A program made the translations under genes and the position numbers. The notes under the pieces are model-generated. The model saw only the letters and a list, made by a program, of their open reading frames with translations. It was not told where the DNA came from and did not search any database. From Woeseiaceae bacterium (lineage in GTDB: Bacteria; Pseudomonadota; Gammaproteobacteria; Steroidobacterales; Woeseiaceae), in NCBI GenBank assembly GCA_011772865.1, contig WVYQ01000009.1, positions 137,800-201,799 of the forward strand: 64,000 nt of DNA. Direction: 5' to 3'. Each line of letters opens with the position of its first letter. The first letter of the stretch is position 1. Below, in pieces: positions 6,891-38,168 of this stretch.

Positions 6891-7658
6891 ATGCGTATTC
6901 GAATTCTTGGTTGTAGCGGCGGCATCGGCGCGGGTTCGCGCACGTCGGCATTGCTTGTCGACGACGATGTTCTGATCGATGCCGGCACCGGCATCGGCGA
7001 CCTGTCGCTCGAAGAGATCGACTCGATTCGCCACGTTTTCCTGACTCATGCGCATCTCGATCACGTGGCCGGACTTCCCATGCTTGTCGACTGCGTCTTC
7101 GACGAAAACTTCGATAAACCCCTTACCGTCTACGCACGTGAAGAAACACTGCGGGCCATTCAGGATCATCTGTTCAATGACGTGATCTGGCCGGATTTTT
7201 CGAAATTGCCCTCGGCGGCGAACCCGATGTTGCGCTATCAAGTCTGCAGTCCGGGGGACACGATCACGATCGATCACCGGAGCTTCTATGCGGTCGACGT
7301 CATGCACACGGTCCCGACGCTGGGCTACACCGTGCAGAATTCGGGTGGCGTCTTCGCGGTGAGCGGCGACACGAAGACAAACGAGACACTTTGGCCTGTT
7401 CTTAATGCCTGTGACGATCTCAAAGTCCTCGTCATCGAGGTCTCGTTCCCGGACGAGATGGAAGCACTCGCCAACGATGCGGGTCACTACTGCCCGAAGA
7501 CGCTCGCCAAGGACCTCGAGCGTCTGGAGCACGATCCCGAGATCTGGCTGACAGGCATGAAGCCGGGCGAAGAGCAGCGCATCCTGAAGCAGGTCATCAA
7601 GGCGGCACCTGGAAAGCATATCCAGATGCTATCCCGTGGCACTGTTCTGACTGTTTGA
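6891..7658 (+). CDS. Metallo-beta-lactamase-fold hydrolase, class II 3',5'-cyclic-nucleotide phosphodiesterase-like
   Basis: The 255-residue protein starts MRIRILGCSGGIGAGSRTSA and carries the MBL zinc motif THAHLDHVAG (H53, H55, D57, H58). Further metal-ligand regions are DVMHTVPTLGYTV, AVSGDTKTN and the NDAGHYCPKTLAKDL segment. The start, the wording around HAHLDH and the overall length match proteins annotated as class II cyclic-nucleotide phosphodiesterases (cAMP hydrolysis). Other small MBL hydrolases have the same fold, so the substrate is not proven. No signal peptide is seen, so it should be cytoplasmic. It is the first gene of the accessory stretch between ypjD and ffh. Confidence 0.75.
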   Translation: MRIRILGCSGGIGAGSRTSALLVDDDVLIDAGTGIGDLSLEEIDSIRHVFLTHAHLDHVAGLPMLVDCVFDENFDKPLTVYAREETLRAIQDHLFNDVIWPDFSKLPSAANPMLRYQVCSPGDTITIDHRSFYAVDVMHTVPTLGYTVQNSGGVFAVSGDTKTNETLWPVLNACDDLKVLVIEVSFPDEMEALANDAGHYCPKTLAKDLERLEHDPEIWLTGMKPGEEQRILKQVIKAAPGKHIQMLSRGTVLTV

Positions 7659-7924
7659 TTTCAAACATTTAGAAGCTATTTCTCAAGCAATTTCAGCAAA
7701 ATCCACGACGTGGAGGATGCTATTTGCGAAACTTAAAGCGGTTTCAATGAAGTGCTCCCGCAGAATCGCGGAGCGGGCGCTCCTTGCAATAGCGGCCGGT
7801 CAAGCCGGCAGTTCTGATAAGTTCTGAGAGACTGCTTTCGGCCAAAAGCGGAGAATCAAAACTCTGAAATTCACGAACGCGATGGCACTCTGTGGCAAGT
7901 TGATGACTGCAGAAGCCCCATTTT
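7659..7924. other. Intergenic stretch, AT-richer, no gene seen
   Basis: These 266 bases separate convergent genes (the MBL hydrolase and the TIR protein). Base composition becomes visibly AT-richer here and stays so through the TIR gene. A weak hairpin (CTCCCGC around 7758 with GCGGAG about six bases later) is present. A 26-codon ATG reading frame from 7747 has no recognisable product and is not called. No T-rich terminator is clear. Confidence 0.4.
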
Positions 7925-9463
7925 TCAGTTGACGCTTGTTATCAGGTATTCAATCACGCCTCCAACGATCCAGACCGCCGGAGGGAAGAAGACAAAAAAC
8001 GTGAATCGAACAAGGAATGGCAATGGAACCGGCCATATCTTGGCCTTTTCTACAACAGTCTGATAGGCGACTAGGTCTGCCAGTTCCTTTTCACGTCCTG
8101 CGGTTGTGCTTGCCAGCAATGCGTCCATTTTAATGCTGATGTTTGCGAGTTCCGTTCGTTTCAGTTCCTTGATTCGTGTGCGAATGCCTTTGGTGGGAAC
8201 CATGACGAGATAAACCGAAGCAATCCCAAGCAACAAAAGAATTGGAACAACAATGGCGAGGTGATATCGAAGGCCCATGACCAGGTAGACAATGGGAATA
8301 ATCGAAAGCCCCCCTACCATAATCAGCATGTTATTCAGACCGGCGAAAAAAAATGGCGCCAATTCTTCTGCCCGTAACAGATTGATATGCGTGTACCTTC
8401 GGCCGAGTAGTGAAAAGAGTCTTGCATTCTTAGCAAAAAGATAAATCGCCTGAAACAGCACGATCCACACTAACGCCTGATACATCGTCGCCCAGGAATC
8501 CCAAACACTCATTGGTTTCCCACGCAATATCAGCTCAGAGACAAACCGCCACCCCTGTAAATAGTTGACCAGCAGCGCGAACGGCACGCCAGCCAAAGCG
8601 ATCCAGAAAAGAGGCACCGATCCTTCGGCAAGCAGGAAGTGTCGAATCTTCAAGTAAGCCGTTTCGCTCACACGGAGGCAATGCCTTACGTTATCGAGAT
8701 AGGTCTGCGACTTTCGCAAAACAAAGTTCACGACAGAAATTGTATAAGCAAGGGCCAACGCATTACCGAGTGCGTATCCTGAGCCACTGTATGCTGAGAG
8801 ACTGAGAAAATGAAACTGATACTCCGCATGAAGCCATCGATCGGTCAGATAGAAGATCGGTGCAACCAAGAAGAAAAGTGTTATCGGACCCAGCTTCGTT
8901 CTTTGCGATATTCGAATAAACCAGACCGGTTTATCCTGGGCAGCCATAATTTGTGAGAGCGGGGCAATGTCCACCATCTCAGTATCGGCGCATTCAGTTG
9001 GCGGCATGTCTGAATAAGCATCGAGGGTTTCCCCCCCAGGATGGACATTACTCAGTGCACTCAGAAGCAAGTCCGTAAACTGATTGTCGGGAAGATCATA
9101 CTTAAGGATTGCCTGGCGGTCGCTCAGAGTAAGGAGCAAACCGGGCGGGATAATTGTGCTTTCCAAGTGAACCACGAGTGTTTGTTTCTCGTGATCAACA
9201 GCAAAATTCGCTTCTTGAGCACAGTACTTCGATTCCGCAGAGTGAGGACTCAGAAAATAGAGAAACACCTCGCATTTGAGGATGCGATTTGCGATCTCGT
9301 CCCTCCAGACTGAACCAGGGTGAATTCCGTCGTCGTACCAGACGTTGAAACCATTACTGCGAAGCATCTTCATCACGCGAAAAACTGCTTCAGAGTCCTC
9401 GTGGGCATAGCTGACGAAGATGAAAGGCTCTTCGCCCTGATAGGCCTGGAATGGTTTTGGCAT
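7925..9463 (-). CDS. TIR-domain protein with multi-pass membrane C-terminus
   Basis: Residues about 12-135 of this 512-residue protein form a bacterial TIR_2 domain, with FIFVSYAHEDSEAV (14-27), VWYDDGI (41-47) and the helix motif SKYCAQEANFA (78-88). Glu84 sits where NAD-cleaving TIR proteins have their catalytic glutamate. A linker (about 140-185) leads to seven or eight hydrophobic segments (about 192-208, 230-250, 283-300, 328-346, 368-396, 402-422, 482-508). TIR domains in bacteria act as NADases or form nucleotide signals, often in phage defence, but no known defence partner gene is adjacent. Sequence is visibly AT-richer than both flanks, which suggests acquisition by transfer. Alternative roles include signalling-scaffold function without NADase activity. 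Confidence 0.82.
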   Translation of the reverse strand: MPKPFQAYQGEEPFIFVSYAHEDSEAVFRVMKMLRSNGFNVWYDDGIHPGSVWRDEIANRILKCEVFLYFLSPHSAESKYCAQEANFAVDHEKQTLVVHLESTIIPPGLLLTLSDRQAILKYDLPDNQFTDLLLSALSNVHPGGETLDAYSDMPPTECADTEMVDIAPLSQIMAAQDKPVWFIRISQRTKLGPITLFFLVAPIFYLTDRWLHAEYQFHFLSLSAYSGSGYALGNALALAYTISVVNFVLRKSQTYLDNVRHCLRVSETAYLKIRHFLLAEGSVPLFWIALAGVPFALLVNYLQGWRFVSELILRGKPMSVWDSWATMYQALVWIVLFQAIYLFAKNARLFSLLGRRYTHINLLRAEELAPFFFAGLNNMLIMVGGLSIIPIVYLVMGLRYHLAIVVPILLLLGIASVYLVMVPTKGIRTRIKELKRTELANISIKMDALLASTTAGREKELADLVAYQTVVEKAKIWPVPLPFLVRFTFFVFFPPAVWIVGGVIEYLITSVN

Positions 9464-9507
9464 GACCTATATGACGACCTTATGAGAATAATGTGAAAGC
9501 GCAGTGC

Positions 9508-9580
9508 CCGCTCTGGGTCATTAGCGGTCCTTCCCACCTATTTTAGTTGAATGTCCAGTTTCAGGGGTAAAGCGGACATT
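9508..9580. repeat. Two related imperfect inverted repeats
   Basis: CCGCT at 9508-9512 pairs with AGCGG at 9523-9527. AATGTCC at 9550-9556 pairs with GGACATT at 9574-9580, with three more A/T pairs inside after two mismatches. The two units look like degraded copies of one element (both read as GTCCGCT / AGCGGAC-like arms around a GGG-containing loop). They lie in the 225-base gap between the TIR gene and the MFS gene, which holds no convincing gene. Confidence 0.4.
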
Positions 9581-9688
9581 GTCTCGTCAAATATAAAGCA
9601 CGCCTCGGCCCCTTCGCTGCGGTTATGATGGCTCCAGTCCACACGAAGCTCCACAGAATCGGAACGCGCAATCGTAAACACCGTCTCG

Positions 9689-10813
9689 ATGAATCGTAAG
9701 CAAGGCCTGGTGGCAGTCATCGCGTCGATGGTTGTCGTTAACCTGGTCTACGGGCTGACTTTGCCGCTCTTGTCTTTGGTGCTCGACTCGCAGGGCATCA
9801 GCAAGACAATCATCGGCCTGAGTGTCGTTGCCCAGGCCAGCGCCGGTGTCCTGCTCGCACCGATCTTGCCGCGGCTAATATTGAGAACTGGCGCTGCGCG
9901 CGCGATGCGCCAGTCAACGTTACTCGCTGCGGGGACATTAGTTGCATTGGGCTTGTTTCAAGATGTCTACGCCTGGTTCCCGTTGCGTTTCCTGCTCGGT
10001 GCGGCAGCGGCCATGTTGTGGTCGGCGAGCGAGGCTATTATCAACGAACTCGCGGATGACGACTGGCGCGGCAGAATCATCGGCATCTACGGATCGGCGG
10101 GTGCGGCCGGGTTCGCCTTAGGTCCGCTGATATTGTTGATAACGGGAACAGAGGGGCTGCTGCCTTTTCTGATAACCGCCCTGATCGTCGTCGCGGCCAG
10201 CGTGCCGTTGTTTTTGCTCAGGAATGACACCCACGCCGATACTGACAAGGGGCAGGTGAGCTTGCGGCGGATATTCTGGGTCGTTCCACAGATAATGATC
10301 CTCAACCTGGTCTATGCGGCTGCGGTCGAGGCGTTCATTACCTTTTTCCCGCTATTCGGCATTCACATTGGTCTCGGAGAGGCACGTAGCCTGTCATTAT
10401 TGACAACGTTTGCTCTGGGCGGCGTGGTGCTGCAATTGCCACTGGGCTGGCTCGCAGATCATATGCACCGATACGGATTGCTCCTGATATGCCTTGTCAT
10501 GACAATCGTCGGTTTCATGTTTCTCCCGCAGGTCGTGTCGAGCAATATTGGGGGTCCTGTGTACGTGTTCGCGTTGGGCGGGGTGGAAGGAATGATCTAC
10601 GCGCTTGGCGTGATTTTGCTCGGGCAGACATTTCGCGGTGTCGAGCTGGCGGCTGCAAGTGTCTTGTTTACAGGAATGTGGGGTGCAGGAATGATGGTTG
10701 GCCCGGTGCTAATCGGGGCAGGGATGGACTATTTCGGCAACGATTCGCTGCCACAACTGCTCGCGGCGATTTACGCGATTTACCTTCCAGTGTTCTTTCT
10801 GGCCAGGCGATGA
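9689..10813 (+). CDS. Major facilitator superfamily (MFS) transporter
   Basis: A 374-residue protein with about 12 hydrophobic segments, starting VAVIASMVVVNLVYGLTLPLL. The loop between segments 2 and 3 is shortened but the region LLRTGAARAMRQ corresponds to it. The second half begins near RRIFWVVPQIMILNLVYAAAVEAF. The architecture is that of a drug or metabolite efflux MFS permease (YcaD/MFS_1-like), in the inner membrane. Length is slightly short for the family (usually about 390-420). Substrate cannot be inferred, and no regulator is adjacent. It ends 54 bases before ffh, on the same strand. Confidence 0.85.
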   Translation: MNRKQGLVAVIASMVVVNLVYGLTLPLLSLVLDSQGISKTIIGLSVVAQASAGVLLAPILPRLILRTGAARAMRQSTLLAAGTLVALGLFQDVYAWFPLRFLLGAAAAMLWSASEAIINELADDDWRGRIIGIYGSAGAAGFALGPLILLITGTEGLLPFLITALIVVAASVPLFLLRNDTHADTDKGQVSLRRIFWVVPQIMILNLVYAAAVEAFITFFPLFGIHIGLGEARSLSLLTTFALGGVVLQLPLGWLADHMHRYGLLLICLVMTIVGFMFLPQVVSSNIGGPVYVFALGGVEGMIYALGVILLGQTFRGVELAAASVLFTGMWGAGMMVGPVLIGAGMDYFGNDSLPQLLAAIYAIYLPVFFLARR

Positions 10814-10867
10814 AACGCGGCAAACTCACAGAAGGCGTGCTCCGGCAATTCATGTAGAATCCGCGCC

Positions 10868-38077: not shown

Positions 38078-38168
<91 letters not shown>

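Follow-up and report, generated by a model that had tools for sequence, protein, structure and literature searches.

The locus considered here raises the question of what a TIR domain does at the head of a multi-pass membrane protein, and of how the gene encoding it came to lie where it does in a Woeseiaceae genome. The window (the whole stretch of DNA that was analysed, 64,000 nucleotides) holds on its minus strand, at 7925-9463, an open reading frame of 512 aa, with an ATG start and devoid of internal stops. Its product is a chimera, in which a TIR domain is joined to a seven-helix membrane module of an undescribed family. The features of the locus are listed in Table 1.

Table 1. Features of the TIR-7TM locus, in window coordinates
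Feature	Position	Strand	Basis
TIR-7TM gene	7925-9463	-	ATG at 9463, stop 7925-7927; uninterrupted; GC3 0.538
TIR domain, predicted cytosolic, residues 13-140	9044-9427	-	Pfam TIR_2 E=5.7e-20; confident AlphaFold2 fold; Foldseek TIR prob 1.00
Glu84 codon, catalytic-type position; WxxxE has Tyr80 for Trp	9212-9214	-	Glu 12/12 in subfamily; W position Y/N/H
Linker, residues 141-192, predicted disordered	8888-9043	-	pLDDT <50 over 147-202
Predicted seven-helix membrane module, residues 193-512, undescribed family	7928-8887	-	AlphaFold2 of window protein and of stand-alone paralogue; no Pfam match above cut-off; relatives in genomes
TM6, 50-residue helix 402-451, predicted to reach the cytosol	8111-8260	-	AlphaFold2; same feature in paralogue, residues 230-283
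Conserved Trp-Pro, W477-P478, at break between cytosolic helix and TM7	8030-8035	-	W 31/31, P 29/31 in module family
Inserted segment with TIR-7TM and MFS genes	7657-10854		Relatives' sequence joins 7656 to 10855; absent from 20/20 relatives
MFS transporter gene, divergent neighbour within the insertion	9689-10813	+	Pfam MFS_1; relatives in 14 other genus genomes

The layout of the protein was predicted from an AlphaFold2 model, run with a home-made alignment, and from the distribution of charged residues. The model places membrane helices at residues 193-224, 230-280, 284-314, 320-355, 365-396, 402-451 and 481-511, TM1-TM3 being modelled at low confidence, and an additional cytosolic helix at 457-473. 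Lysines and arginines number 4/4/4/10 on the cytosolic side versus 0/2/1/0 outside, which indicates an N-in, C-out topology with the TIR domain predicted to lie in the cytosol. The initial annotation had proposed seven or eight passes; seven agree with both the modelled helices and the charge pattern, and the eight-pass topology was dropped.

The N-terminal part is a TIR domain, as had been read from the letters alone. Pfam TIR_2 (PF13676) matches residues 15-119 at 72.5 bits (cut-off 28), AlphaFold2 gives a confident TIR fold (10-residue pLDDT means of 70-96 across residues 1-140), and in the Foldseek search the model matches the TIR domains of TLR, SARM1, RPS4 and SPARTA, all with a probability of 1.00. 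By alignment, the glutamate of the SKYCAQE motif is residue 84, at the position referred to as catalytic in TIR domains. It is invariant in the alignment of the TIR subfamily (12/12), and Trp42, Asp44 and Ser78 are invariant as well, which indicates that the domain has not decayed. The further suggestion that Glu84 points to NADase activity is weak: the position is right and conserved, but Glu84 also aligns with the glutamate of TLR2/TLR15, and the ‘catalytic’ glutamate is found in >70% of all TIRs and in >90% of the non-enzymatic TLR1/2/6/10 (PMC7075850), and is therefore not diagnostic of an NADase. The WxxxE motif is incomplete, Tyr80 replacing the Trp, and this position is Y, N or H among the subfamily relatives. 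The Trp has been linked to cyclic ADP-ribose products (PMC11374754) and is dispensable in TcpC. If the TIR domain is enzymatic, plain NAD+ hydrolysis would be likelier than a cyclic product.

The nearest solved TIRs found with the profile form a mixed group, with Cat1 first (9mud, E=3e-12), then TLR6, TLR15/TLR2 and TLR1. The closest TIR domains overall (49-56% identity; L004/L005/L006, from two MAGs) are at the N-terminus of TIR-TM-TolB/TPR proteins, and the relatives within the order share 36-43% identity (L075-L079). The subfamily is found on TM-TolB/TPR or FGE-sulfatase proteins, which are mostly sensor-like. L075 and L077 (genomes G159 and G221) each encode a protein of ~870 aa that unusually pairs a TIR with an FGE-sulfatase (SUMF1-like) domain. 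Further afield, an FHA-GAF-TIR protein encoded on a Chloroflexota plasmid (NZ_CP128402; L148, 1625-2884) adjoins a serine/threonine kinase gene and a Swt1-type HEPN gene, and looks like part of a TIR signalling cassette.

The membrane half, judged from its profile matches, belongs to an orphan family: Pfam gives no match above cut-off for the module, which is found elsewhere as a stand-alone protein of ~345 aa. Matches were obtained in 33/396 genomes of the order, 28/107 of the family, 4/369 of the class and 4/379 of the phylum, and the relatives other than the window copy are frames of ~110-400 aa, the shortest of which are contig-end or broken pieces. The window module matches the family profiles over its whole length (E=6e-80 to 6e-85, for profiles that contain the window copy as one row), while independent single-sequence matches reach 4.8e-18, with many members matched over residues ~323-508. 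The Trp-Pro hinge is near-invariant in the family and is kept in the window copy. The stand-alone homologues are found in scattered genomic contexts with no conserved neighbour, one peptidase-like family recurring in 3 loci. Elsewhere in the class, a distant genome encodes two adjacent but divergent copies of the module (L071; G740:C4:482827-484823).

Besides the window copy, no TIR or other extra domain was found in the module homologues among the genomes searched (order, family, class and phylum), and across about 1,900 genomes the fusion was seen just once. The combination of a TIR domain with a multi-pass membrane part is thus as unusual as first supposed. What is new is that both halves have relatives, but separately, the window copy of the module being the only one seen to carry a TIR, and the relatives of the two halves show that their ancestries are separate. 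The TIR subfamily and the module co-occur in 3/12 genomes, which is not significant (p=0.064). TIR proteins of the genus whose frames were read are soluble or have at most 3 strong membrane segments, apart from the window protein and one exchanger-type protein. The latter (L025; G022:C103:92830-93174) has 604 aa and 13 passes, belongs to the Na+/H+ exchanger family (PF00999, 8e-50) and carries a C-terminal TIR_2 domain (9.6e-21).

The fold of the module was also examined in a stand-alone paralogue of 343 aa from the same genome (G000:C3), for which AlphaFold gave a pLDDT of 84.5 and a pTM of 0.81 with 31 sequences, and helices at residues 28-50, 58-92, 114-136, 151-186, 197-226, 230-283, 291-302 and 311-342. 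The seven best matches of this model among 350,542 PDB chains are insect gustatory and odorant receptors, namely Drosophila Gr43a (three entries, probability 0.98, E 0.011-0.018), AgamOR28, MhOR5 and AaegOR10, with Orco and BmGr9 ranking lower. The Foldseek TM-scores are ~0.30 and do not reach 0.5, the usual line for global similarity, scores of 0-0.3 being counted as random (PMC9998090). Insect gustatory and odorant receptors are tetrameric ligand-gated channels (PMC9998090, PMC11100771), and the 7TMIC superfamily is defined by seven TMs, an intracellular N-terminus, a cytosolic anchor formed by TM4-6 and TM7a, and a split TM7 (PMC9998090). The models and the charge pattern predict seven TMs and an intracellular N-terminus for the module, and the lengths of its helices, together with their interruption at the Trp-Pro, would be compatible with the long TM4-TM6 anchor and the TM7a/7b split, with the low confidence of TM1-TM3 in the window model to be borne in mind.

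At the sequence level the resemblance is not seen. The module family stays below the cut-off of Pfam 7tm_7 (PF08395), and homology to it was rejected: one member reaches E=0.009, and the genus-wide hits are background-level, lie in other places and are all below cut-off. A search of the PDB with the family profile recovered no insect receptor, and HHalign of the module against Gr43a, Gr9, OR10 and OR28 gave probabilities of 0.1-0.3, the same as for shuffled or unrelated proteins; the receptors other than Gr43a entered this comparison only with the sequence letters given by the search tool. Gr43a and Or22a sequences served as baits, and the Gr43a bait matched PDB 8jm9 across its full 427 residues. 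The TYhhhhhQF pore motif of insect receptors is not seen in the alignment of the family's last helix, and comparison with viral structures gave no match. A screen published in eLife found no prokaryotic 7TMIC member in the proteomes it covered (PMC9998090), and a later review holds that several lines of evidence favour a transfer of 7TMICs from eukaryotes to prokaryotes (PMC11526382). Since the TM-scores are ~0.30 and a sequence-profile link was absent by four routes, we keep the resemblance as a lead and not as membership. It seems doubtful that the 7TMIC fold has a bacterial representative in this module and that the window protein is a ligand-gated TIR receptor, in effect a bacterial ‘taste receptor’ with TIR enzymology as output instead of or besides ion flow.

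As for the origin of the gene, it lies in a 3.2 kb insertion between a metallo-beta-lactamase-fold gene and ffh. The site is empty in all 20 genus relatives whose locus was retrieved, where the metallo-beta-lactamase-fold gene is followed by ffh within 0.6 kb, with neither a TIR nor an MFS gene. In nucleotide alignments with close relatives, 7656 is joined directly to 10855 with the break at an identical base, which identifies the segment between as an insertion with a base-sharp junction. The junction is a possible insertion hotspot; relative G025 has a different small insert there (L124, 1970-2530), which reads as a GNAT-type acetyltransferase. The TIR gene has a GC of 0.487 and a GC3 of 0.538, versus a GC3 of 0.68-0.79 in 15 neighbouring genes, with the caution that the stand-alone paralogue of the same genome also sits in a region of ~53% GC. 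The MFS gene, with a GC3 of 0.688, looks native. Horizontal gain of the recently inserted TIR-7TM gene is well supported by the empty site, the sharp junction and the deviant GC3, and the AT-richness noted and horizontal gain suggested in the initial annotation are both borne out. The two gene halves hardly differ in GC3 (0.552 and 0.533), which makes it probable that TIR and module were already fused at the time of transfer. The surrounding genes code for a PP2C phosphatase, a CHASE2-kinase, a CNNM/CorC protein, a cytochrome-c-assembly protein, the metallo-beta-lactamase-fold enzyme, the MFS transporter and Ffh, with radA and an rpsP-rimM-trmD-rplS run read by eye. A tRNA as integration target was discarded, the sole tRNA in the window being far off at 38078, and a sigma-70 scan for a promoter of the TIR-7TM gene did no better than chance.

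The explanation that we find best, and put forward tentatively, is that of a horizontally acquired chimeric signalling protein in which the signal would run from the membrane to the TIR domain. The seven-helix module would probably be oligomeric through helices that project into the cytosol (TM2, TM4, TM6 and the one preceding TM7) and would sense a ligand or a perturbation of the membrane. Sensing would bring together or re-orient the cytosolic TIR domains held by the flexible linker. Once clustered, the TIRs would most likely cleave NAD+ or a nucleotide akin to it, or else nucleate a TIR assembly. TIR NADases, such as SARM1, SPARTA and TIR-STING, are generally activated by oligomerisation. 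This reading draws on the intact frame, the TIR fold, the conserved Glu84, Ser78, Trp42 and Asp44 and the N-in topology, as well as on the recurrence of the TIR subfamily as the head of sensor-like proteins, the presence in the genus of the exchanger-type TIR protein, and a well-predicted seven-helix fold that comes closest, among solved structures, to insect receptors. It is weakened by the presence of Glu84 in non-enzymatic TIRs too, by the Tyr at the Trp position of WxxxE, which is not conserved in the subfamily, and by the lack of conserved neighbours around the stand-alone homologues. As the fusion is a singleton, selection on the pairing of TIR and module cannot be demonstrated.

The strongest rival reverses the direction of signalling. 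Here the effector would be the module, acting as a transporter or an ion channel, and the TIR would recruit or sense in a regulatory or scaffolding capacity, much as RCK/KTN domains regulate ion transporters. Cation channels come closest to the module in fold, the TIR at the C-terminus of the 13-pass exchanger looks like a regulator or an add-on, and the scaffold TIRs of TLR6, TLR2 and TLR1 are amongst the closest solved relatives, all of which would suit a TIR acting on the membrane part. The missing pore motif in the last helix and the weakness of the structural similarity (TM-score ~0.3) argue against a channel-like module, and we consider this alternative rather unlikely.

A stand-alone antiphage or cell-death effector, as which the gene was initially proposed, would sense infection at the membrane and deplete NAD+ through its TIR. 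TIR domains are common in defence, the gene lies in an accessory insertion of deviant composition at a junction that seems to accept different insertions, and PADLOC does return matches to the protein, albeit only generic TIR ones (SAVED-TIR and ThsB models), with none for the membrane family. The context does not support such a role: no defence genes lie beside the gene, its neighbours being housekeeping ones, the TIR subfamily is mostly on sensor-like proteins, and the surroundings of the stand-alone module homologues are scattered. Named defence TIR families (NCBIfam) score 19-31 bits against cut-offs of 130-600 (best 30.8 vs 220) and ThsB_TIR 14.9 bits vs 21.2, so known systems such as Thoeris ThsB, SAVED-TIR or retron-TIR were set aside. 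A phage or plasmid origin was likewise rejected, as the searches gave distant TIR-only matches and no copy of the TIR-7TM architecture, and viral contigs no match to the TIR. We regard the antiphage role as unlikely. MT836178.1 (L147), although entered as ‘Bacteriophage sp.’, resembles a contig from a gut bacterium, on which a TPR-TIR-like protein is encoded and carboxypeptidase-like and pseudouridine-synthase-like frames were recognised by eye; the record is probably mislabelled.

The last alternative, a fusion that arose recently by accident and has no selected function, an orphan gene about to be lost, would suit a singleton of low GC3 that lacks a conserved partner, but is quite improbable given the intact 512-codon frame, the preserved TIR core, Glu84 and Trp-Pro hinge, and two halves alike in composition, which suggest that the fusion predates the transfer.

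Should the membrane-to-TIR reading be correct, the coupling of a TIR to a seven-helix module would represent a new route to membrane control of TIR signalling, the bacterial TIRs among the relatives read here being mostly soluble proteins or one-helix anchors. If the module truly has the insect-chemoreceptor fold, it would offer a small bacterial model of ligand sensing with a biochemically readable output, and even without such a fold it is an undescribed membrane family whose fold is testable.

Compared with known systems, the window protein shares its module and the Trp-Pro hinge with the stand-alone 7TM proteins of the same genus, family and order, which have no TIR. With the insect receptors (7TMIC, PF08395 and relatives) it shares, in its predicted fold, the seven helices and the N-in orientation, and may also resemble them in a long cytosolic TM6 and a split seventh helix; those receptors carry no TIR. 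The TIR-TM-TolB/TPR and TIR-FGE-sulfatase proteins of Gammaproteobacteria have, like the window protein, an N-terminal TIR and the shared start PFxAYxGDEPYxFVSYAH, but beyond it have roughly a single membrane helix, followed by a portion of TPR or FGE-sulfatase type instead of a seven-helix module. Cat1, the CRISPR-associated TIR protein (9mud) that the TIR profile ranks first among solved structures, is soluble, forms filaments and has its own sensor, while in the window protein a membrane module is attached instead. Finally, animal Toll-like receptors also place a cytosolic TIR on a membrane protein, but with one membrane helix, an LRR ectodomain and a C-terminal TIR (PMC7075850), where the window protein has seven predicted helices and carries its TIR at the N-terminus.
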